DNA from: Pseudomonadota bacterium
GTDB lineage: Bacteria > Pseudomonadota > Gammaproteobacteria > Acidiferrobacterales > UBA6901
Direction of reading: 5' to 3'
Assembly: GCA_021778035.1 (NCBI GenBank)
Contig: JAJYCY010000014.1
Coordinates: 1-38,938 of the forward strand
Length of the DNA: 38,938 nt
Part shown: piece after piece, positions 6,703 to 37,114 of the stretch
Layout: every line of letters starts with the position of its first letter
How positions within the stretch are numbered: the first letter of the stretch is position 1
The notes under the pieces: model-generated
Told to the model about the DNA's origin: nothing
Database searches by the model: none
Seen by the model: the letters and a program-made list of their open reading frames with translations, nothing else
Program-made: the position numbers and the translations under genes

Positions 6703-7503
6703 CTATCCCGGCAGCCCTGCCATGACCCCGGGGTTGTGAACCAGGCCGTACCACAGGAAGCCGAGGCGTTCCCGCATGGCGATGGCGCTCATCTCCATGC
6801 CCTTGGCTGACGGCAGGTAGCCGAGCAGTCCTGAATACTTTTTCCCCAGGGTGGCAAAGCCCGTCGGTGCCGGGGTCACCTTCATGCCGTTCATTTCGAA
6901 GGCCCAGACCGCCCGCTTCATGTGCCAGGCACTCGTTACCAGATAAATGTCGTTGATCTTGGCCGCCGCCAGCAGCTGGTGACTGTAGCGGGCATTCCCC
7001 CAGGTGGTCCGGGATTTGTCCTCGACCCACATGACCTTTGCCGAGAAATCCCGCTCGAGGCTTCTTTTCATCAGTACAGCTTCCGCAGCGGGCTCACCGA
7101 ACGGCGAACCCCCGCTCACCAGGATCGGCAGCCCGGTGCGCCGCTGCAGCCATGCGGCATAGCGCAGACGCACGAGATCAGTTGGTCCGACCGTGTCGCC
7201 GCCGTATTCCGGGGCATTCGCATAGCGGCCTGCGCCTAGCACAACGATGGCCCGTATGTCCTTGCCTGGCTTTTTGAGCCCGGGGCTGAGCGGCAGTGCG
7301 TAGGCATCCAGGCGGGCCAGAAGCATCTGCCCGGTCAGGGGCAGGGACAGCGCAATCAGTGCCGCGGTGGCGAGTCCGATTACCGCGGCGCCCAGCCAGG
7401 GTCTCTTGATATGCAGCAGCAGTCCGAGAATGATTGCCAGGATGATCCCGCCCGGAGGAATGATGAGCAGGGCGATCATCGAGGTCCAGACGCCACTGTT
7501 CAT
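6703..7503 (-). CDS. ElyC/SanA/YdcF family (DUF218) membrane protein
   Basis: A 266-residue protein with two N-terminal membrane helices (about 8-30 and 36-58), then a DUF218 domain. Family landmarks are [10 protein letters not shown], the SGG segment in [10 protein letters not shown], the [11 protein letters not shown] segment and [13 protein letters not shown]. coli relatives (ElyC, SanA) affect envelope integrity and lipid-linked peptidoglycan intermediates, and the domain faces the periplasm. Its ATG at 7503-7501 overlaps the lipA stop in ATGA, so it is translationally coupled as the last gene of the dat-ybeD-lipB-lipA run. A longer in-frame start would run far into lipA and is unlikely. 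The substrate is unknown. Confidence 0.85.
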
Positions 7504-8507
7504 GGCCGGCGTGCCTGCTGCTCGGCATGGTACGACGATCGCACGAGCGGACCACTGGCCACGTTGCGGAACCCCATTGTGGCGCCGATCTCGGCGAAAT
7601 GTCCGAACTCCTCGGGCGTGACGTAGCGCTGGACCGGAAGATGGTGATCGCGGCTTGGCTGCAGATACTGTCCGATGGTCAGCATCTCGCACCCATGGTT
7701 GCGGAGATCACGCATCGTTTCCTCGATTTCCTGGGTCGTCTCGCCGAGACCGACCATCAGTCCCGACTTGGTCGGAATTCCCGGGTGCCGTTCCCCGAAC
7801 CTGCGCAGCAGCTCGAGCGAATGGGCATAATCGGCGCCGGGGCGCGCAGCCCGGTAGAGGCGCGGCACCGTCTCGATGTTGTGGTTGAACACATCCGGTG
7901 GCGCGCGGTCCAGAATGTCGATCGCCCTGTCCATGCGTCCGCGAAAATCCGGAACCAGGATCTCGATGCCGATCCCGGGATTATGCGCGCGCAGTGCCTC
8001 GATGCAGTCGACGAAGTGTCCGGCCCCTCCGTCACGCAGATCATCACGGTCGACCGAGGTGACCACAACGAACCGCAGGCCCATCCGGGCCACCGTCGCT
8101 GCCAGGTTAAGGGGTTCCTGCGGATCAAGGGCCGCCGGCCGGCCGTGCGCGACGTTGCAGAACGGACAGCGGCGCGTACAGACATCTCCCATGATCATGA
8201 ATGTCGCTGTGCCATGGCCGAAGCATTCCCCGATGTTCGGACAGCTGGCCTCCTCGCACACCGTGTGCAATCCGTTGGCACGCAGAATCGATTTCAGCCG
8301 CGCAACGTGGGGTGTGCTTGGAGAACCCGCACGCAGCCAGCGTGGCTTGGGTAGAGGCCTGGCTGCAGGGACGATCTTTACGGGGATGCGGGCAGTCTTG
8401 GAAGCGCCTTTCAGCGGGTTCGGACCGGCTCCCGACCCTTCCGTCCTGCCGGTGTTCCGGTCGTCATGTTCCATCTGCGGGCTTCCGTGGCGCGGCGTCA
8501 GCTTCAA
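7500..8507 (-). CDS. lipA: Lipoyl synthase
   Basis: Radical-SAM enzyme that inserts two sulfur atoms into octanoyl groups carried on E2 or H-protein domains. Both Fe-S sites are visible: the auxiliary cluster cysteines C84, C89 and C95 in [12 protein letters not shown], and the radical-SAM CTRRCPFC (C110, C114, C117). The C-terminal RSSYHA serine that ligates the auxiliary cluster is also present. The 335-residue form starts at TTG 8507, which overlaps the lipB stop in TTGA and matches the 4-nt overlaps of its neighbours. The in-frame ATG at 8474, with GGAAG upstream, is a good alternative and would remove 11 residues from an already poorly conserved N terminus. Confidence 0.97.
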
Positions 8508-9178
8508 TTGTAACTCAGATTCCCCAGCAGTGCGTCAAGCAGTGCCGTTTCGACGGCCTGAAGGCTGTCGACGGGAACAAGGTCGGCAAGCTGGGTGACT
8601 TCGAGACCCGGGTAACCGCAGGGATCGATGTCGTTGAACGGGCGCAGATCCATGCTGACATTGAGCGCCAGGCCGTGGTAGCTGCAGCCGCGCCGGATGC
8701 GCAGGCCGAGCTGGGCGATCTTGCGGTTCCCGACGTAGACGCCCGGCGCACCAGTGTGGCGGCATCCGCCGATGCCGTATGCGTGGAGAAGATCAATAAC
8801 CGCCTGTTCAAGCCTGTGTACCAGTCCTTTGGGCCCCAGATTATGGCGCCGCAGATCCATCAGGACGTAGGCCACCAGCTGTCCGGGACCATGATAGGTG
8901 ATATCTCCGCCGCGGTCTGTCTGTACCAGTGTGATATCGCGACCGCCGGCAAAGGGGCGGTGTTTCGCGTTGAGCCCCATCGTATACACCGGCGGATGCT
9001 GGAGGAGCCAGATCTGGTCCGGATCACCGGGCATACGCGCCTCGGTAAAGGTGCGCATGGCGATCCAGGTCTCGTTGTAGTCCGCAATGCCGATCCGCCG
9101 GATCGTCGGCTGGATGATGCCGGATTCCGTATCACGGCTGTGGTCTGCGTCGCCGTGCATGATCGAATCCGTTTTCAC
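8504..9178 (-). CDS. lipB: Octanoyl-[acyl carrier protein]:protein octanoyltransferase
   Basis: Moves octanoate from acyl carrier protein to the lipoyl lysine of target proteins, the first step of lipoate assembly, in the cytoplasm. Seen motifs are [14 protein letters not shown] (89-102), KIAQLGLR with the active-site Lys153, and DPCGYPGL with catalytic Cys187. The 224-residue form starts at GTG 9178, overlapping the ybeD stop in GTGA. ATG 9160 is an alternative that removes six residues. LipA lies directly downstream. Together they can make lipoyl groups de novo; the GcvH-like carrier at 34664-35110 is a possible client in this window. Confidence 0.96.
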
Positions 9179-28389: not shown

Positions 28390-31300
28390 TCACGGTCCTG
28401 CGGGCGTCCGCCGGCTTAGCAGGTGGCCGAGCCACAGCCCGGTGAGATGTTCCTGCACGTGGTTCTGCGACAGGCGTTCATCCAGATTGTCCAGATCGAC
28501 GATGTCGAGCGGCTGGTCCTGCCAGGAACAGGCGAACACGGCTTTCGTGCGGCGTCCGGTATGCGGGTCGACCTGCCACTGCAGGCACTGCGAGCATACG
28601 CCCTTCAGCATGCACTGCATCGGTGTGCTGATGGACGCGGTGGTCTGCGGCTTCCTGACCAGAAATTCCGCCAGCTCGGCACTGCGTGCATCGCGCATCA
28701 GCCGTACGAAGCAGCTCGACCCGATGAGCCACAGCCGGTCGACATCTTCCAGTCTGACGGGGGGTCCGCCGCCGAGCTGCCCCGTGGCGTAGGCGACGAG
28801 TGCTGTCACCACATCGCCGCTTGCAACCCGGTCCTGCGGTCTGCAGGGTGCGGGGAGCATGCTGCCGTCTTCGATGACCCACAGAATGCTGTCTGCCGTG
28901 TCCTCAAGATCCTTCCTGCAGATGATGGCATCCACGGATGGAAACACGCCGGCGAAAAGGACCCGGTTACCGGCTTCCCGCAGCGCCGGTCCAGCTGAAC
29001 GCAGGTATGCGGCAGCCATTACGCCCCCTGCGATCATGACGGTTTCGCCGCCCGCGGGAATCGCGGCGCGCACGCCGGTCGGTCCCATCAGGGTTACCGG
29101 ATCACCGGGCTTCAGGGTCGCAATGAGATGCGAGCTTGCCCCTTGCTCGATAACGATAACCGAGACGAGCCCGTTTTCCCGGTCAACTTTCGAGCCGTAC
29201 AGCGCCAGCGCCTCCGATTGCAGGCGCGTGCCCTCGACGAGCGGGGCATGGGTCTCGAAGTTCTGCAGGCGGAAAAACTGTCCCGGGCGGAAACGCTTCG
29301 CCGCCATGGGTGCCCGCACGGTCAGTTCCACCACGGTGGCGCCGAGGCGCTCGACTTTCTCCACCCGGGCTGCCAGCAGATCCGAGATTTGGTCGCGGAA
29401 CCGCGCGTACTCGCTGCGGTCTCCGCGCTGGCCGGTACGCCCGCCCAGCGCGGCAAGGATGTGCGGATAAATGCGCTTGGCGGAGGCGACTGCCTTGACT
29501 ACGCTGCCATGAAATACCGGGTGGGTATCGCCGAGGAAACTGACCCGCCGGCCGTCCACGCCATAGGAGGTGAATGGACCAAAATCCCCGATCTTGCAGT
29601 GTTCCGCGACCGGCACCGCTTCCAGGCAGCCGCTGGCATCACGGAAGGTCTGGTAATGGCCATGTTCCTTGCTGAAATGGCCGCGATGTTCGAATTCATA
29701 GGCGACATTAGGCCGGGCACCCGTGGCCACGAGTATGGAGCGCGCGGGAACCCGGATTTCTTCCCCGGTATCCTCCCAGCTTCCGTCCGCGCCGCGCCGC
29801 AGCTGGCGGCACAGCAGCGTCTCGACCTGGCCGTGCCGGTCGGTAAGTGCCTCTCTCGGATCCAGTCCCTCGGCGTAATAGATCCCTTCTTCCAGCGCCT
29901 TGATGATCTCCTCGTGGTTGCGGGTATAGGCCGGGGATTCGTTCATTCCGCGGCGATAGGCGACGGTCACGCCGCCCCACGACCGCAGCAGCTTCTCGAA
30001 ATCGGGTTGCGTTCCGGCAGCAGCAGCACGACCGCGTTCTGACCGCACCAGCCGTCCGTGGGCAAGCAGCTCATCGAGGATCAGGCAGTCGCCGTCATCC
30101 AGTCCGACCCGCACCGCCTTGTCACCGAGACTGGTACAGAGCTGTTCATAGCGGAAGAGTGTCTTTTCGACCTGCGCGATGTAGTAGGCGCCAACCTCGG
30201 TCGCAGCATCAATTCCGGTGAGGCCTCCACCGATGATGACTGCCGGCAGCCGTACCTGCAGGTTGGCGAGGCTCTCGGCCTTGGCGGCTCCGGTAAGCTG
30301 CAGCGCCATCAGAAAGTCGTTTGCCTGTCGCATTCCCGGCGCCAGGCTTCCCGGGACAGGCAGCGCCTGCGGCAGACCAGCGCCGATAGCAACGGCGACA
30401 TGGTCGAATCCGAGATGCCACGCGTCTTCGACGGTGAGGGTTCCGCCGAAACGCACCCCTCCGAAAACCTGGAACCGCGGCCGGCGTGCGAGGCTCAGGT
30501 AGATGAGTCTGAGGAAGTTCTTGTCCCAGCGGTTCGTGATGCCGTATTCCGCGACGCCGCCGAATCCCGCCATCACGCGGGTGTCGAGTGGCTCTTCGAT
30601 CTGCACATAGTCGCGCACCGGTCTGCCGAGGAGCTCCTGCGGCAGAGGTTCGATCTTCAGTCCCTCGATGCCGACCACGGCGAATCCTTCCATAAGCAGG
30701 TGGTGGGCAAGGGTGAAACCCGCCGGCCCCATGCCGGCGATGAGTACTTTCAGGCCGTTGTACGGCTTTGGCAGCCATTGGCTGCGCCGCAGCGGATTCC
30801 AGCGAATGAGCAGATCATAGATTTCCACGCCCCAGGGCAGTCCGAGCACATCCGTGAGAATGCCGGTTTCCGTCTGCGGAATATTCACCGGATCCTGCTT
30901 CTGGTAGATGCACGCCTTCATGCAGTCGTTGCAGATGCGGTGACCCGTGGCCGCGCACATCGGATTGTCCGCCGTGATCATGGCAAGCGCGGCAATCCCG
31001 TGGCCGTCCCTTTTCATGACGTGCATCTCGGAAATCTTCTGGTCGAGCGGGCAGCCGGTGAGGGTTACGCCGAGGGGGTTCAGCTTCAGACCCTTGTCGG
31101 GCTCGCCTTTCTTCTCGGGGAACCCCTTGGAGCAGAAGTCGCCGTCGTGATCGTGGCAGTAGATGCAGTAATGGATCTCGTTCTGGACCTGGCGTGGTCC
31201 CATTCGCGTATCGGTCAGCCCGAAACCATCGCGCCGGCGACGACTGTCCTGCGGTCCTTCCAGCCGGCCGGCGGCGTCGCCGGCCACTGGAAACACCGGC

Positions 31301-31923
31301 ACCAGCCGGGCAGGATCCACCCCCTGCGGAAGCCGGAAACTCACCCACCCCTGAACCCGTGCGCGGCCCTCGGGCGACCGGATCGCCTGGATGCACCAGC
31401 GCGTGAGCATCTCGATCGCGTCCTGGTGCCCCGGTTCATCGCCGAGCAGCTGCTGCGCCCAGGTGGCGACCGCCAGCTCACGGTCGGGTCCGCCATGCCC
31501 CGCCTGGTGCAGTGCACGGTCGAGTGCAGCATCGAGTTCCGGAAATGATTCTATCTGCTCCTTGGCAAGGAGGCGGCGGCGGGCACGGCGCTGCACGAAG
31601 AGCTTCTTGAACGTGAACACCGGGCCGTGCGCAAGAGTGCCCAGACGCAGATGCTCCAGGGCCCTGCGGATGCCGAACAGGTCGGCAATGAATTCCTCGA
31701 GCACCGGTCCGGCGGCGAGCAGCAGCTCGCTCACCTTCAGTGCATCCAGCGCTGCGCCACCCCGGTAATCGAGCAGCTGTTCGTGACGTGAAGGATCGTG
31801 TTGCGCAAGGCGCTGCAGGAATTCCTGGTCGAGCCGCTCCAGGCCTTCCTGACGGAACAGATCATCGTAGGTCAGGCCTGGCAGGCCTGGTGTGAACTCG
31901 CTTACGCTGCTGGTGGTGGTCAT
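28390..31923 (-). CDS. Large Fe-S flavoprotein, NfnB-NfnA-like fusion
   Basis: A 1177-residue cytoplasmic protein. Residues 1-245 are helical and unrecognised. Residues 250-345 carry GltD/NfnB-type cysteines for two [4Fe-4S] clusters: C253, C256, C264, C291 (GCPLDQKISE), C323, C331, C334 and C338. Residues 390-860 form a GltD-like flavoprotein module with two dinucleotide-binding sites (AGMGPAG at 396-402 and IIGGGLTGIDAATE). Residues 870-1177 resemble PyrK/NfnA: a ferredoxin-reductase fold (FRPGQFFRL), a nucleotide-binding part and C-terminal [2Fe-2S]-type cysteines in MQCMLKGVCSQC plus VFAC. Two-chain NfnAB bifurcates electrons among NADH, NADPH and ferredoxin; whether this fusion does so is an inference. 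It follows a DUF2892 gene by 154 nt. Confidence 0.85.
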   Translation of the reverse strand: MTTTSSVSEFTPGLPGLTYDDLFRQEGLERLDQEFLQRLAQHDPSRHEQLLDYRGGAALDALKVSELLLAAGPVLEEFIADLFGIRRALEHLRLGTLAHGPVFTFKKLFVQRRARRRLLAKEQIESFPELDAALDRALHQAGHGGPDRELAVATWAQQLLGDEPGHQDAIEMLTRWCIQAIRSPEGRARVQGWVSFRLPQGVDPARLVPVFPVAGDAAGRLEGPQDSRRRRDGFGLTDTRMGPRQVQNEIHYCIYCHDHDGDFCSKGFPEKKGEPDKGLKLNPLGVTLTGCPLDQKISEMHVMKRDGHGIAALAMITADNPMCAATGHRICNDCMKACIYQKQDPVNIPQTETGILTDVLGLPWGVEIYDLLIRWNPLRRSQWLPKPYNGLKVLIAGMGPAGFTLAHHLLMEGFAVVGIEGLKIEPLPQELLGRPVRDYVQIEEPLDTRVMAGFGGVAEYGITNRWDKNFLRLIYLSLARRPRFQVFGGVRFGGTLTVEDAWHLGFDHVAVAIGAGLPQALPVPGSLAPGMRQANDFLMALQLTGAAKAESLANLQVRLPAVIIGGGLTGIDAATEVGAYYIAQVEKTLFRYEQLCTSLGDKAVRVGLDDGDCLILDELLAHGRLVRSERGRAAAAGTQPDFEKLLRSWGGVTVAYRRGMNESPAYTRNHEEIIKALEEGIYYAEGLDPREALTDRHGQVETLLCRQLRRGADGSWEDTGEEIRVPARSILVATGARPNVAYEFEHRGHFSKEHGHYQTFRDASGCLEAVPVAEHCKIGDFGPFTSYGVDGRRVSFLGDTHPVFHGSVVKAVASAKRIYPHILAALGGRTGQRGDRSEYARFRDQISDLLAARVEKVERLGATVVELTVRAPMAAKRFRPGQFFRLQNFETHAPLVEGTRLQSEALALYGSKVDRENGLVSVIVIEQGASSHLIATLKPGDPVTLMGPTGVRAAIPAGGETVMIAGGVMAAAYLRSAGPALREAGNRVLFAGVFPSVDAIICRKDLEDTADSILWVIEDGSMLPAPCRPQDRVASGDVVTALVAYATGQLGGGPPVRLEDVDRLWLIGSSCFVRLMRDARSAELAEFLVRKPQTTASISTPMQCMLKGVCSQCLQWQVDPHTGRRTKAVFACSWQDQPLDIVDLDNLDERLSQNHVQEHLTGLWLGHLLSRRTPAGP

Positions 31924-32077: not shown

Positions 32078-32275
32078 TCAGTCCTTTTTGGTGGACGAAT
32101 TGATCCCGAAAAGCGAGTAGGCGGGGCACCAGCCCACGAAGGCCGTGAATATCGGCACGAGCCCGATCAGCCCCAGCCAGCGGATACTGCCTTTCAGCAC
32201 AAATACCAGGCTCAGCAGAGCCAGTCCGATGATCACGCGGACCACTTTGTCCATGCTGCCGACGTTCTGTTGCAT
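32078..32275 (-). CDS. DUF2892 family two-helix membrane protein (YgaP C-domain-like)
   Basis: A 65-residue inner-membrane protein. The start NVGSMDKVVRVIIGLALL and the end FTAFVGWCPAYSLFGI match DUF2892, the membrane part of the rhodanese YgaP, including the conserved Cys-Pro (GWCP). Two helices cover about 12-30 and 33-50. The ATG at 32275 has GAGGA upstream; longer in-frame starts lack support. It lies between moaC and the large flavoprotein on the same strand. The family is common beside sulfur and thiol genes; the role is unknown. Confidence 0.9.
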   Translation of the reverse strand: MQQNVGSMDKVVRVIIGLALLSLVFVLKGSIRWLGLIGLVPIFTAFVGWCPAYSLFGINSSTKKD

Positions 32276-32369
32276 GTTGGAATCCTCGGTCAACCGCCTG
32301 TCCGGATCTGCGCCGCCGCGATCTGCCGGCGGCACCCCCCTGCAAGCTACCACGAAACCATGACGGGAG

Positions 32370-32903
32370 TCAGGCGCGCGTCCAGTTTCCTGAACGCCCG
32401 CCGGATTTTGCGATCAGCATGATGTCCGTCATCACCATGGCGCGGTCCGCGGCCTTGCACATGTCGTAGAGTGTCAGCAGTGCCACCTGGACCGCGGTGA
32501 GCGCCTCCATCTCCACACCGGTCTGGCCGCGGGTACGTACGGTTGCGCGACAGTGGATCGCAGACGCAGCTTCGTCAGTGTCGAGCGCCACGTCGATCGC
32601 GGTGAGGACGATCGGGTGGCACAATGGCACCAGGTCGGACGTCTTTTTTGCCGCCATGATACCGGCGATGCGTGCCGCGGCCAGTACGTCACCCTTGCCG
32701 TGCCCGCCGGACAGGATCAGACGCAGGGTTGCGCGCTGCATGCGGATCGTGCCGGTCGCGACCGCCTCGCGGTCCGTGATCTTCTTGGCACCTACACCTA
32801 CCATGTGTGCCTCGCCGGCGGCGTTGATGTGCGTCAGCTTTTTCGCGCCGCGCGGTGCCGCCGCACGTCCAGACCCGGACAGGTTTCGGCGCCGGCTATT
32901 CAT
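32370..32903 (-). CDS. moaC: Cyclic pyranopterin monophosphate synthase MoaC
   Basis: Makes cyclic pyranopterin monophosphate in molybdenum cofactor synthesis, in the cytoplasm. The 177-residue product has [56 protein letters not shown], the [10 protein letters not shown] segment and [12 protein letters not shown], including the catalytic-type Lys and His residues. It carries a basic N-terminal extension of about 20 residues. Its ATG at 32903 overlaps the moaB end by eight bases, so it is translationally coupled to moaB. No moaA lies in the window. Confidence 0.96.
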
Positions 32904-33420
32904 GCCGGATGCGCGGCAGAAGCTCGACCAGGTTGCAGGGGCGGTGACGGCTGTCAAGCTGGCTGAGGATGATGCTGTCCATTCCGAGGCGACAGGCGCC
33001 GGTCGATCCGGGAAGCATGAAGATCACGGTGCCGTCGGCGATGCCGGCATCGGCCCGCGACTGGATCGTGGAGGTGCCGATTTCCTGGTAGGACAGCATC
33101 CGGAACAGCTCCCCGAACCCGGGAATGGGTTTGGTGATGAATGGCCGGACTGCCTCGGGCGTGATGTCGCGGCGGGTCATCCCGGTGCCTCCGGTGCAGA
33201 TGATCACGTCTATGTCCGGGTCATCGATCCAGCTGCGCAGCCGGGCACGCAGCTTCTCCATGTCCTCGCGCACCAGCGCGCGCTGTTTCACGTGATGCCC
33301 GGCGTCCTGCGCCCGCCCGGCGATGAGATCTCCGGATGTGTCGTTCTCCGGGGTGCGCGTGTCTGAAAGCGTCAGTACCGCGATATTGAGCGGGATGAAG
33401 GGTTTTTCTGGTTTGGTCAT
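32896..33420 (-). CDS. moaB: Molybdenum cofactor biosynthesis protein MoaB
   Basis: A 174-residue MoaB/Mog-fold protein acting on molybdopterin, by family in adenylylation. Seen motifs are [40 protein letters not shown] and [15 protein letters not shown], the last two shaping the pterin/ATP site. It starts 33 nt after the dnr stop and overlaps moaC, so dnr-moaB-moaC looks like one transcript. MoaB of this type can replace MogA; which role it has here is not readable. Confidence 0.94.
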
Positions 33421-33453: not shown

Positions 33454-34158
33454 TCAGCTGCCATCGTCGGACGCAGGCAGGTAGGCCAGATTGCGCAGAC
33501 CGCGCAGGTCACGCAGCGCAACATGGTTTCCGTTCACCTCGATAAGTCCGAGGCGCTTCAGTTTGGCGAGAATGCGGGAGAAGGTCTCCGGCTGGATCGC
33601 CAGCTGTGATGCGATCACAGCCTTGGTGGTCGGCAGCTCCATTTCGGCGGTTCCGGACCGGTCCGCCGGCACGTGCTCGAGCAGGTACAGCGCCAGCCGG
33701 TAGGTCGCGTTCTGCAGCGTCAGGCCATCGATCTGGTTGACGAGCATATGCAGGCGGCGGCTCAGTGCTGCCAGCATGCCGAGACAGATTTCGGGCGATT
33801 CCGACAGGACCTTGAGAACATGCTTCTGGTCAAATGCAAAAAGCCTGCTCTCAGTCATGGCCTGCGCGCTGACCGGGTAGTGTCCCTGCGCGCCCATGAA
33901 CATTACCGCTTCGGCGAAGGTCTGTCCTGGTCCGATGATCTCGATGATCTTTTCCTGGCCCTCCGGTGATATCCGGTATAGTTTGATCTGTCCCGAGCGT
34001 ACGAGGAAAAAGCGGTCGGCCACCTGTCCGTGTGTGAACAGGGTATCGCCCGTGGCAAGCGTGGTCTCGTGCGCAGCGCCAGCGAGCACCGCCAGCTGCG
34101 AGTCATCTGCCTGGGAAAAAAGAGGTGCGCGGCGAAGTTCGGCCAGTTGTTTAACCAT
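33454..34158 (-). CDS. dnr: CRP/FNR family regulator, Dnr type
   Basis: A 234-residue transcription factor. Residues 1-130 form the cyclic-nucleotide-fold sensor (RSGQIKLYRISPEGQEKIIEII, GQTFAEAVMFMG), followed by a dimer helix. A helix-turn-helix domain (about 165-215) has the recognition segment QPETFSRIL, the E-x-x-S-R pattern that reads TTGA half sites. It lacks the N-terminal cysteine cluster of FNR, so it is not an O2-labile Fe-S regulator. Dnr-type proteins of denitrifiers bind heme and respond to NO; this is family knowledge, not seen. It is divergent from the lipoyl/thioredoxin membrane operon and shares one FNR-type box with it, and is followed by moaB and moaC. Confidence 0.87.
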   Translation of the reverse strand: MVKQLAELRRAPLFSQADDSQLAVLAGAAHETTLATGDTLFTHGQVADRFFLVRSGQIKLYRISPEGQEKIIEIIGPGQTFAEAVMFMGAQGHYPVSAQAMTESRLFAFDQKHVLKVLSESPEICLGMLAALSRRLHMLVNQIDGLTLQNATYRLALYLLEHVPADRSGTAEMELPTTKAVIASQLAIQPETFSRILAKLKRLGLIEVNGNHVALRDLRGLRNLAYLPASDDGS

Positions 34159-34197: not shown

Positions 34198-34211
34198 TTG
34201 ATCAAGGTCAA
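34198..34211. promoter_or_regulatory. FNR/Dnr-type box in a divergent promoter
   Basis: TTGATCAAGGTCAA matches TTGAT-N4-ATCAA at nine of ten defined bases. Rightward, a -10-like TATTCT lies at 34235-34240, placing the box near -42 of that promoter. Leftward, TTTAAT (reverse complement of 34171-34176) places it near -41 of the dnr promoter. Both fit class II activation, so one site could serve both directions. Confidence 0.75.
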
Positions 34212-34262
34212 GCGCGGGATCTTCCCGCCGGAGCTATTCTAAGCAAAAATCAGGGCGCTGGC

Positions 34263-34658
34263 ATGCACAAGCGGAACCGTCTTTTTGTCACGTTCAGTCT
34301 GGCCTATGCCCTGATCGGCGGTCTGGCCGGCATCATATGGCTTTATGATCCGGGACTGATACCCGGTGACGCCGTGCTTCTTCACGGGCATATCATGCTG
34401 CTCGGATTCATCGCCATGATGATCTATGGAGTCGGGCTGCATGTCCTGCCGCGGTTTTCCGGCAATCCGCTCTATTCGGAACGGCTGGCAAACTGGCAGT
34501 TGTATGTTTCCAACGCCGGGCTGTGGCTGATGTCGGCAGGGTGGCTTGCTGCCAGCAACCCGCTCGTGCTGCTCGGCGGCGTGGTGAGCTGGGCGGGTAT
34601 AGGCATGTTTGCGTTCAACATCATGCTGACTGTCAAAATCCACGGACCAGCCGGGTGA
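34263..34658 (+). CDS. Four-helix membrane protein with conserved histidines (heme-copper oxidase subunit I-like half module)
   Basis: A 131-residue inner-membrane protein with four helices (about 7-28, 38-62, 79-97 and 101-126). The second helix carries HGHIMLLGF (His41, His43) and GVGLHVLPRFSGNP (His60), a pattern resembling helix segments of CcoN/NorB and NnrS proteins (HG-h-GF ... Y-x-x-LPR). Heme or metal binding by these histidines is an inference. The second gene after it ends with a paralogous module with the same 17-residue spacing between His43 and His60. It is the first gene of the operon controlled by the FNR/Dnr-type box, and its stop overlaps a possible GTG start of the next gene. 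Confidence 0.78.
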   Translation: MHKRNRLFVTFSLAYALIGGLAGIIWLYDPGLIPGDAVLLHGHIMLLGFIAMMIYGVGLHVLPRFSGNPLYSERLANWQLYVSNAGLWLMSAGWLAASNPLVLLGGVVSWAGIGMFAFNIMLTVKIHGPAG

Positions 34659-34663
34659 CCGCC

Positions 34664-35110
34664 ATGTCCGAGTACCGTGGCTGCGAACTGCCGGAAGACC
34701 TGTACTATGACCTCGACTATGTATGGGCACGTCCAGACGCCGACGGCAGCTTCACGATTGGCATTACCGATGCCGCCCAGACCATGGCCGGAAGGGTGCA
34801 GTACATATTTTTCAAGAAGCTGGGAACGCACCGTGCCGGTGGCAAGCCGGTGGCGCGACTGGAGTCCGGCAAATGGGCCGGAGGCATACCGGCCCCGTTC
34901 GACGGTGAAATCCTGCGCATCAATGAACAGGTGGTGGCGAGACCCGGCCTGGTCAACGTGTCTCCCTACAGCGACGCGTGGCTCGTCATCATGCGTCCGG
35001 ACGATCCGGCCAGGGCCCTGGACCGTCTGCGCACCGGTGCAGCCGCGATCGAGGCGCTGCACAAATGGATAGACCGTTACGACGTCCAGTGCATGCGTTG
35101 CCAGGACTGA
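34664..35110 (+). CDS. GcvH-like lipoyl carrier protein with C-terminal CxxC
   Basis: A 148-residue cytoplasmic protein with the glycine-cleavage H-protein fold: YYDLDYVWARPDADGSFTIGITD, then LESGKWAGGIPAPFDGEI with lipoylation-site Lys70, then RPGLVNVSPYSDAWL. About 20 extra residues at the C terminus end in DVQCMRCQD, a CxxC (Cys143, Cys146) absent from ordinary GcvH. No gcvT or gcvP is near, so a role outside glycine cleavage is likely, as for the lipoate-binding proteins of the sHdr sulfur pathway. ATG 34664 is chosen; a GTG at 34655 would overlap the previous stop in GTGA. lipA and lipB in this window could supply the lipoyl group. Confidence 0.85.
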   Translation: MSEYRGCELPEDLYYDLDYVWARPDADGSFTIGITDAAQTMAGRVQYIFFKKLGTHRAGGKPVARLESGKWAGGIPAPFDGEILRINEQVVARPGLVNVSPYSDAWLVIMRPDDPARALDRLRTGAAAIEALHKWIDRYDVQCMRCQD

Positions 35111-35144
35111 CAGAGAGAGGACGGCGCATGACGGAGGAACGGGC

Positions 35145-35861
35145 TTGAAGGTCCAGCTGCTCGTGTCCGATTGGTGCGCCTCCTGTCATCAGGCGGAGAA
35201 GGTGTGGCGCGAGGTGTCGGAGGAGCGCGATTTTGATTTTGCGGTGGTGGACATGGGGCAGCCCGAGGGCAGGGAGCTGGTCAGCCGGTTGCGCCTCAAG
35301 ACCATTCCGGCGCTGGTCGTCGATGACCGGCTTGCGGCGATCGGCGTGCAGACCCGGCAGGAGGCGCTGTCCATCGTCGGCGCCGCGCCTGCGAAGCTGG
35401 CCGCGCCGACGCACCATGTGGGACTCAGCATGGGCACCACTGGCCGCGCGGCAGTACATTCCTCGCTGGTTTACCTATTTGTTGCCGGCGGGTTTCTCGC
35501 CGTGAAGGGATCCCTGTTTCTCGGCGGTTTTGCGCGTGTTGCGCCGCTGCATCTGTTCACCCTCGGGTTCATGACCTTCATGGTCTATGCCCTGGGCGAA
35601 CACATGCTCCCGCGATTCACCGGCAATCCTGTCCGCGGCGGTGTGTTCGCCTGGCTGCAGCTCGGATTGGCCCATGCCGGGCTGCTCATGCTGGTGTCGG
35701 GTTTTTTCTCGGGCTCGCGGTGGCTTGCGCTGGCGGGCGCCTGTCTTGCATGGCTGGCGTTTCTGATGTTCGCGCTGCGGATGTGGCCCGTGCTGTGGCC
35801 ACGGCAGGCGGGCGCCGCAGGCGCGGAACCGCCCACCGGTACTATCCGGGAAGGCGATTGA
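35145..35861 (+). CDS. Thioredoxin-fold domain fused to a four-helix membrane module
   Basis: A 238-residue protein. Residues 1-80 form a thioredoxin/glutaredoxin-like domain with LVSDWCASCHQAEKVW (Cys11, Cys14) and the cis-proline segment KTIPALVVDD. After a linker, four helices follow (about 105-128, 133-152, 168-188, 195-215). The second carries LHLFTLGFMTFMVYALGEHMLPRFTGNP with His136 and His153, matching the first gene of this operon. With no signal peptide, the thioredoxin part should face the cytoplasm, on the same side as the lipoyl carrier. The TTG start at 35145 is preceded by GGAGG at 7-nt spacing. A six-codon frame from ATG 35128 ends in TTGA over this start. Confidence 0.8.
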   Translation: MKVQLLVSDWCASCHQAEKVWREVSEERDFDFAVVDMGQPEGRELVSRLRLKTIPALVVDDRLAAIGVQTRQEALSIVGAAPAKLAAPTHHVGLSMGTTGRAAVHSSLVYLFVAGGFLAVKGSLFLGGFARVAPLHLFTLGFMTFMVYALGEHMLPRFTGNPVRGGVFAWLQLGLAHAGLLMLVSGFFSGSRWLALAGACLAWLAFLMFALRMWPVLWPRQAGAAGAEPPTGTIREGD

Positions 35862-35905: not shown

Positions 35906-37114
35906 ATGCTGTCCCTTGAAGAAGCGCGCGCCGCCATCCTCGAACGTCTTCGCCCCTGCAGCGGGATCGAGGAAGTGCCGCTGCGGCAGGCGCTCGGCCG
36001 GTTTGTCGCTGCAGAACTGAAGGCGCGGGTCGATAATCCTGCGTTCACCAATTCTGCCATGGACGGCTATGCGCTGGCCGCAGCCGATCTTGCAGACGGG
36101 CATTCCGTGCTGCCGCTGGAGGGTGAATCGCGCTGCGGCGATGCGCCTGGAGCGATGGCGCGGGGCACGACCATGAGGATCTTTACGGGTGCGCCCCTGC
36201 CAGAAGGTGCCGACACCGTGGTCATGCAGGAAGATGTGCGGGTCGAAGGCGGGCGGGTTGTGTTTCCGGCGGGTGTGCGTCAAGGACGGAATCTGCGCAG
36301 GCGTGCCGAGGACTTCCGTGTTGGTGACAGTCTGTGCGCGCGCGGCCGCCGGCTGGCCGTCTACGATCTGGCGCTGTTGTCATCGTCCGGGATTGACCGC
36401 ATCCCGGTCTATCGCCGGGCGCGGGCGCTGGTGGTGGCAACTGGCGATGAGCTGGTTGCGCCGGGGATGCCGCTCGGGCCCGGTCAGATCTACGAATCGA
36501 ACCGGCTTGCAACGCTCCTGCAGCTGGAGGCTCTCGGCGTCGAGGTGGTTGATGGCGGAACGGTGCGGGACGATGCGGCGGCGTTGCGCGCGCTGCTCGG
36601 AAACTGTACCGGATATGATTTTGTGATCACCAGCGGTGGCGCCTCGGTTGGTGACCATGACCTGGTGCGCCAGGTGTTTGCCGAGATCGGCGAAATCGAT
36701 CTGTGGAGAGTGCGCATCAAACCGGGCAAGCCGCTCGCGTTTGGCCGGCTGGGCGAACAGGGTCACTTCTTCGCACTGCCCGGGAATCCGGTGTCGAGCC
36801 TCGTCACGTTCAAGCTTTTTGTCGAGCCCGCGGTGCTCGCCTGGAATCACGCGCAGTCGGACAACCTTCCCGGTTTTGGCGCCGTGGCCGGCAATGATCT
36901 CAGACGGCAGCCGGGGCGTACCGAGTTCGTGCGTGCAAAGCTTCACATCGATGTCGCGGGACGGATCGTTGCGACCGCATTGCCAGGACAGGGTTCGCAC
37001 CAGATCGGGACGCTGCGCGATACCAACGGCCTGATCAGGCTTGCCGACGACAGCCCGGGCTTTGCGGCGGGCGACGCCGTAACCGTGATTCCGCTCAGTC
37101 TCGACCGGCTGTGA
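35906..37114 (+). CDS. moeA: Molybdopterin molybdenumtransferase MoeA
   Basis: A 402-residue cytoplasmic enzyme that inserts molybdate into adenylylated molybdopterin. Seen features are SLEEARAAIL, NPAFTNSAMDGYAL, RIFTGAPLPEGADTVVMQE, VVATGDELV, YESNRLATLLQLEALG, FVITSGGASVGDHDLV and ALPGNPVSSLVTFKLFVEPAVL. The C-terminal domain is complete (VTVIPLSLDRL). AAGGAG eight bases before the ATG at 35906 fixes the start. It lies 44 nt after the thioredoxin-membrane gene on the same strand, so it may share the FNR/Dnr-controlled transcript, tying cofactor supply to anaerobic respiration. Confidence 0.96.
   Translation: MLSLEEARAAILERLRPCSGIEEVPLRQALGRFVAAELKARVDNPAFTNSAMDGYALAAADLADGHSVLPLEGESRCGDAPGAMARGTTMRIFTGAPLPEGADTVVMQEDVRVEGGRVVFPAGVRQGRNLRRRAEDFRVGDSLCARGRRLAVYDLALLSSSGIDRIPVYRRARALVVATGDELVAPGMPLGPGQIYESNRLATLLQLEALGVEVVDGGTVRDDAAALRALLGNCTGYDFVITSGGASVGDHDLVRQVFAEIGEIDLWRVRIKPGKPLAFGRLGEQGHFFALPGNPVSSLVTFKLFVEPAVLAWNHAQSDNLPGFGAVAGNDLRRQPGRTEFVRAKLHIDVAGRIVATALPGQGSHQIGTLRDTNGLIRLADDSPGFAAGDAVTVIPLSLDRL

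Follow-up and report, generated by a model that had tools for sequence, protein, structure and literature searches.

A third clade of LbpA-type lipoate-binding proteins is encoded with a thioredoxin in a conserved cassette of sulfur-oxidizing bacteria

The window examined here, that is the whole 38,938-nucleotide stretch of gammaproteobacterial DNA that was analysed, contains three closely packed genes downstream of a single FNR/Dnr-type box, and raises the question of what a lipoyl carrier, a thioredoxin and two small membrane modules might do together. The features concerned are the following.

33454-34158, minus strand: CRP/FNR-family (Dnr-like) regulator, 234 aa (PF00027, 6e-21; PF13545, 1e-15)
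34198-34211: FNR/Dnr-type box TTGATCAAGGTCAA (TTGAT-N4-GTCAA), read from the sequence in the gap that separates gene A from the divergent Dnr gene
34263-34658, plus strand: gene A, 131-aa four-helix membrane protein (COX1, 3.7e-07, below cut-off; CcoN profile match; AF2 model)
34664-35110, plus strand: gene B, LbpA-type lipoate-binding protein, 148 aa (PF01597 GCV_H, 5.6e-30; invariant residues, tree and distribution)
35145-35861, plus strand: gene C, Thioredoxin_3 domain (C11xxC14) fused to a four-helix module (PF13192, 5.5e-08; NnrS, 1.9e-05, below cut-off; AF2 model)

Genes A, B and C, the last with a TTG start codon, lie on the plus strand between the Dnr-like regulator gene and moeA (35906). 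Their order is kept in 11 genomes of eight families within a class sample of 369 gammaproteobacterial genomes, so that the set is not a product of chance; the three genes are a conserved cassette of sulfur-oxidizing bacteria.

Gene B almost certainly represents a third LbpA clade, for which we use our own name LbpA3, and both this identity and the linkage of the gene to its neighbours are well supported. It was not until 2018 that a function was assigned to the lipoate-binding proteins of the sHdr pathway, in a study that left open why some organisms carry two of them (PMC6067878). Two strictly conserved cysteines, one near each end, mark LbpA and are absent from GcvH (Cao et al., 2018; PMC6067878); C7 and C143 of B are invariant in our alignment and match the corresponding cysteines of LbpA1 and LbpA2. 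Lys70 is likewise invariant and stands in the motif ESGKWAG (ESSKWAG in two sequences of family f127), ESGKW being common to LbpA1 and LbpA2, whereas GcvH reads ESVKA. What sets B apart from the two known proteins, with which it shares the GcvH-like lipoyl domain, the lysine motif, the terminal cysteines and the genomes in which it is found, is its separate clade, its location apart from the sHdr/lip cluster in the company of thioredoxin, hemerythrin and Dnr genes, and an extra cysteine, C146, which gives a C-terminal CxxC that reads C-x-R-C throughout the 33 B sequences compared. The initial annotation had described a GcvH-like lipoyl protein with Lys70 and a new C-terminal CxxC. The lysine and the CxxC were borne out and C7, which it had not mentioned, was found in addition; the GcvH identity has given way to membership of the sHdr-associated LbpA family, and of the cysteine pair only C146 is new, since C143 is the known C-terminal LbpA cysteine.

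The phylogeny points the same way. In a tree of 96 rows, for which the bootstrap had not fully settled and the program flagged long branches, B, LbpA1, LbpA2 and GcvH each formed one clade, with B sister to LbpA1 (99/96). B also scores below the equivalog cut-offs for gcvH (TIGR00527, 76.2 versus 115.85 bits; PRK01202, 103 versus 117), and the genome has a separate true GcvH on contig C34 as well as two further paralogs side by side on contig C71. The tree, the cut-offs and the LbpA cysteines together rule out a GcvH variant. A scan of a viral collection with B returned no relative, and a search of the open-access literature returned no third LbpA and no LbpA linked to hemerythrin, NnrS or NO genes.

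The two paralogs on C71 are LbpA1 and LbpA2, which are encoded in an sHdr cluster together with HdrB-like subunits, an iron-sulfur (HdrC-like) protein, DsrE, LipS1, LipS2 and an LplA/LplAB-type ligase. B itself is encoded on a different contig, C23, and so lies neither in nor beside that cluster, and in the loci examined no sHdr genes were found beside B; we have therefore filed it as an LbpA paralog and not as a known component of the sHdr cluster. Canonical lipA and lipB genes (7500-8507 and 8504-9178, both on the minus strand) are present on the same contig as the cassette, about 25 kb from it, so that, given the C71 cluster, both lipoate routes, LipA/LipB and LipS1/LipS2/LplA, are present in the genome.

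The distribution of B follows that of sHdr. B-type matches (E < 1e-68) were detected in 18 genomes of 12 families in the class sample, well apart from LbpA1 and LbpA2, which appear at 1e-43 to 1e-30. B was present in 16 of the 20 genomes with two LbpA proteins, in none of the 13 with one and in two of the 336 with none, that is in 16/20 genomes with the sHdr LbpA1/LbpA2 pair versus 2/349 others (Fisher p=2e-22). One of the two exceptions (G230) carries sHdrB1 and the other (G374) is 75% complete. Independence of B from sHdr was considered because three genomes (G002, G027 and G230) at first seemed to have no sHdr or LbpA1/LbpA2; G002 and G230 were then seen to have sHdrB1, which in G027 is cut by a contig edge, so that the apparent absences look like assembly gaps. 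A phylum sample of 398 genomes yielded one further B genome, G719, which is placed to phylum level only and has one LbpA2-like protein, and in which the core of B, hemerythrin and thioredoxin recurs.

That linkage with the surrounding genes should recur in other genomes was one of the points on which the initial annotation had allowed its reading to fail, and linkage was found. Within 4.5 kb of B, in a set of 35 loci in which one locus is entered twice (L040/L087) and several come from one genus, a thioredoxin gene was present at 33, a Dnr homolog at 24, A-like modules at 17 and hemerythrin proteins at the majority. No thioredoxin gene was found near B at L090 and L093, and in the window and in its genus B has no hemerythrin gene beside it. 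Pfam-confirmed neighbours of B comprise hemerythrin, DUF2249, bacterial globins, a split flavohemoglobin (a globin with a separate reductase) and DUF488; there are truncated globins as well. The thioredoxin domain of gene C scores 33.2 bits versus a cut-off of 24.8 bits for PF13192, has a thioredoxin fold (Z 11.5 over 80 residues, 1.9 Å) and invariant C11 and C14, confirming the CxxC thioredoxin domain joined to four membrane helices that had been described for this protein. In 11 class genomes this domain and the membrane module form one protein; other genomes, G719 among them, encode a soluble thioredoxin on its own. The conserved set as first proposed thus stands for its core, carrier plus thioredoxin, usually accompanied by hemerythrin and Dnr, but not for A, which is missing from seven of the 18 B genomes. 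Family f4 has a second LplA-type ligase, of a divergent clade distinct from the sHdr-cluster ligase; it is encoded divergently to dnr-lbpA3 (L048:5822-6874 and L054:5191-6213), which suggests that B is lipoylated. A dedicated adjacent ligase as a general feature was ruled out, being confined to that family.

Other genes near the cassette in the window may be recorded here. The regulator and cassette are flanked by moaC and moaB (32370-33420, minus strand) and moeA (35906-37114, plus strand), suggesting a molybdoenzyme under related control, and a YgaP-like transmembrane protein (PF11127) without a rhodanese domain is encoded at 32078-32353 (minus strand) in the dnr-moaBC neighbourhood. Further away (28390-31923, minus strand) is the gene for a 1177-aa flavoprotein with GltD-like and PyrK/ferredoxin-reductase-like parts. 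A homolog, 55% identical, adjoins B in G033 (L047:2785-6291), the protein otherwise not being a conserved neighbour; it is a possible reductase partner.

When and why such a cassette might be expressed is indicated by the box and by the company that the genes keep. The box TTGATCAAGGTCAA has one mismatch to TTGATNNNNATCAA and lies 51 nt before gene A; the divergent Dnr-like gene starts 39 nt from it on the other side. Of 34 distinct loci, 26 have a box with 0-2 mismatches, often of the form TTGAC-N4-GTCAA, at 61-107 nt ahead of the start of A or B. This constant position is a stronger argument than the shuffle values for single loci, which were modest (up to about 0.1), and it upholds the placing of the three genes under an FNR/Dnr box. 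We consider it highly likely that the cassette belongs to an NO/anoxia regulon. Regulation by Dnr-like proteins and FNR boxes also occurs in response to anoxia in which NO plays no part, and we infer the response to NO from the nature of the neighbours. The NO-handling context tentatively proposed earlier is supported. Consensus sequences for DNR and HcpR, of the shapes of the TTGAT and TTGAC boxes, are among the material given in PMC1274295; the DNR regulon of denitrifiers, to the extent of that account drawn on here, shares with the cassette a TTGAT-N4-ATCAA-type box and hemerythrin (dnrN-like), globin and NnrS-like neighbours, but includes neither a lipoyl carrier nor a dedicated thioredoxin. 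In the metagenome-assembled genome to which the window belongs (90% complete), the only full heme-copper oxidases were two that are aa3-type by neighbourhood, and the assembly contained no full-length NorB, so that an endogenous source of NO remains putative.

The membrane modules were in the main as first described. Gene A is modelled with four helices (AF2, pLDDT 84), and H41, H43 and H60, the first two forming an H-x-H motif, are invariant among 11 orthologs, in keeping with a His-bearing four-helix protein; the tail of C matches A (about 34% over 115 aa, E about 1e-13), which makes it the second copy that had been proposed, and its H136, H153 and H177 are invariant in the alignment. The positive residues of A are found at the N-terminus, in loop 2-3 and at the C-terminus, placing the termini in the cytoplasm and hence probably all thiols as well, in agreement with the side assigned to them at the outset. 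The A profile matches CcoN (E 1e-06), with H41 and H43 aligned to the HxH of the last repeat, and the A model superposes on helices IX-XII of oxidase subunit I (Z up to 13.7, 127 residues, 3.0 Å); helical bundles can, as the structure tool warns, reach such Z values by chance, and the fold assignment therefore rests on the profile and structure matches together. A and the C tail are accordingly described as single four-helix modules resembling helices IX-XII of heme-copper oxidase subunit I. A similarity of A to MAPEG-type proteins (LTC4 synthase, Z about 9.6) was judged to reflect a common four-helix arrangement, and the membrane part of C gave no informative structure match, the thioredoxin domain having filled the match lists. 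Unlike CcoN and oxidase subunit I, A has 131 aa, corresponds to one of three repeats and lacks the other heme and Cu ligands; with a COX1 score of 29.8 versus a cut-off of 34.8 bits and only the HxH of the last repeat, it does not qualify as an oxidase subunit I.

NnrS (PF05940) offers a second comparison, having four-helix, His-bearing repeats, an NO-regulon setting and a partial profile match to A and the C tail; these differ from it in scoring below the curated cut-off (15.6 bits for A and 24.6 for C versus 28) and in being single repeats on two proteins, one of them fused to thioredoxin. We hypothesize that the A and C modules may bind heme. A-type proteins (E < 1e-38) occur in 12 of the 369 class genomes, namely in 11 of the 18 with B versus one of the 351 others. 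As A is absent from seven B genomes, the heme or metal site held by the paired modules that the initial annotation had inferred cannot be an obligatory terminus; the bound cofactor and the NO or quinone chemistry of that reading remain putative. Related modules were also seen elsewhere: the twelfth genome, G186 (L140:605-2673), lacks LbpA3 but has an NO-type neighbourhood in which Dnr is accompanied by one hybrid A/C-like four-helix protein, hemerythrin and DUF2249, and at L141:1336-1872 the neighbours of a 178-aa CcoN-like four-helix protein, a free-standing single-repeat oxidase module, are a cytochrome c and a thioredoxin-like protein.

What stays constant is the pairing of a CxxC-bearing lipoyl carrier with a CxxC thioredoxin; the simplest step is therefore that the two exchange disulfides, and it is probable that B and C exchange thiols. 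Our current working hypothesis, which we advance tentatively and at a little short of an even chance, is that the cassette is an NO/anoxia-induced lipoyl-thioredoxin dithiol relay of sHdr sulfur oxidizers, membrane-tethered in some lineages. Dihydrolipoamide dehydrogenase, or electrons from sHdr, would reduce the lipoate on Lys70 of B; from the lipoyl group two electrons would move to C143/C146 and on to the thioredoxin domain of C. This domain would in turn keep protein thiols, including the cysteines and lipoyl groups of LbpA/sHdr, reduced and denitrosated while NO is present, and in the lineage of the window A and the C tail, as single-repeat oxidase/NnrS-like modules that probably bind heme or NO, would tether the relay to the membrane. 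The identity and phylogeny of B, its linkage, the box and the co-occurrence with sHdr come from the analysis itself, and the lipoylation, the electron direction, the target, the heme and the role of NO as signal are all inferred. A reductive, protective direction is somewhat more doubtful than the relay itself; the thioredoxin could equally oxidize B, and we prefer reduction by a small margin because the membrane module is dispensable, the thioredoxin mostly is not and the neighbours are detoxifying. A functional analogy is provided by the AhpC/AhpD/SucB/Lpd peroxide and peroxynitrite reductase, in which lipoyl-SucB/Lpd feeds the CxxC protein AhpD in defence against peroxynitrite (PMC6626918), a lipoyl carrier thus acting through a CxxC protein against reactive nitrogen species. 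There AhpD is thioredoxin-like only in function and the carrier is an E2 enzyme and not a dedicated LbpA; no AhpC gene was noticed in the neighbourhoods examined. Denitrosation by thioredoxin and lipoic acid is among the work cited in PMC9598160.

The association of B with sHdr genomes and its position as sister to LbpA1 would also suit a different function, which we regard as rather unlikely: under anoxia or denitrification B would replace LbpA1, take up the electrons of sHdr sulfane-sulfur oxidation and be re-oxidized through the thioredoxin and A/C into a quinone/heme chain instead of NAD+. The fusion of the thioredoxin to one oxidase-like module beside a second, the near restriction of A to B genomes (11/18 versus 1/351) and the co-regulation of sulfur and nitrate respiration in Hyphomicrobium (PMC12423496) agree with this, but the seven B genomes without A have a thioredoxin that is soluble or absent nearby, the quinone site and a complete set of heme ligands are putative, and in the loci examined nothing connects B directly with the sHdr cluster. 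The NnrS and COX1 similarities and the conserved histidines could instead mean that A and C form a split NnrS-like heme or metal protein binding or relocating NO or heme, with B and the thioredoxin only keeping metal ligands or thiols reduced; G186, which retains the hybrid module with dnr, hemerythrin and DUF2249 but not B, would fit, yet the seven B genomes without A and the scores below the curated cut-offs make this quite improbable. A lipoate-based membrane electron wire, running from sulfane-sulfur electrons through lipoyl-LbpA3, the CxxC and the membrane-tethered thioredoxin to heme in two single-repeat oxidase modules and there reducing NO or feeding the respiratory chain, seems to us slightly less probable still, and we know of no description of dihydrolipoyl groups being coupled to a membrane redox module of this kind. 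It is very unlikely that B carries persulfide (sulfane sulfur) on its C-terminal cysteines for release as sulfide by the thioredoxin under NO stress: the C-terminal LbpA cysteine has been likened to the sulfur-binding cysteine of SoxY (PMC6067878) and the DUF2249 neighbours weakly resemble TusA, but the CxxC pair with its CxxC partner favours disulfide exchange and no sulfurtransferase is conserved in the cassette. That B is an ordinary GcvH or a lipoate-assembly scaffold lying here by chance is hardly credible: the GCV_H domain and the conserved lysine speak for it, and a separate true GcvH, a place outside the GcvH clade, a score of 76 versus 116 bits at the gcvH cut-off and the LbpA cysteines speak against it.

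The presence of an LbpA3 away from the sHdr genes, with a thioredoxin and in an apparent NO/anoxia regulon, points to a link between sulfur oxidation and the handling of NO, and suggests how sulfur oxidizers may shield or reroute their dithiol chemistry under NO. It makes thioredoxin a candidate partner of sHdr-type lipoyl carriers outside the sHdr system itself, and it brings to light a free-standing single-repeat oxidase-like module that is worth testing for heme.
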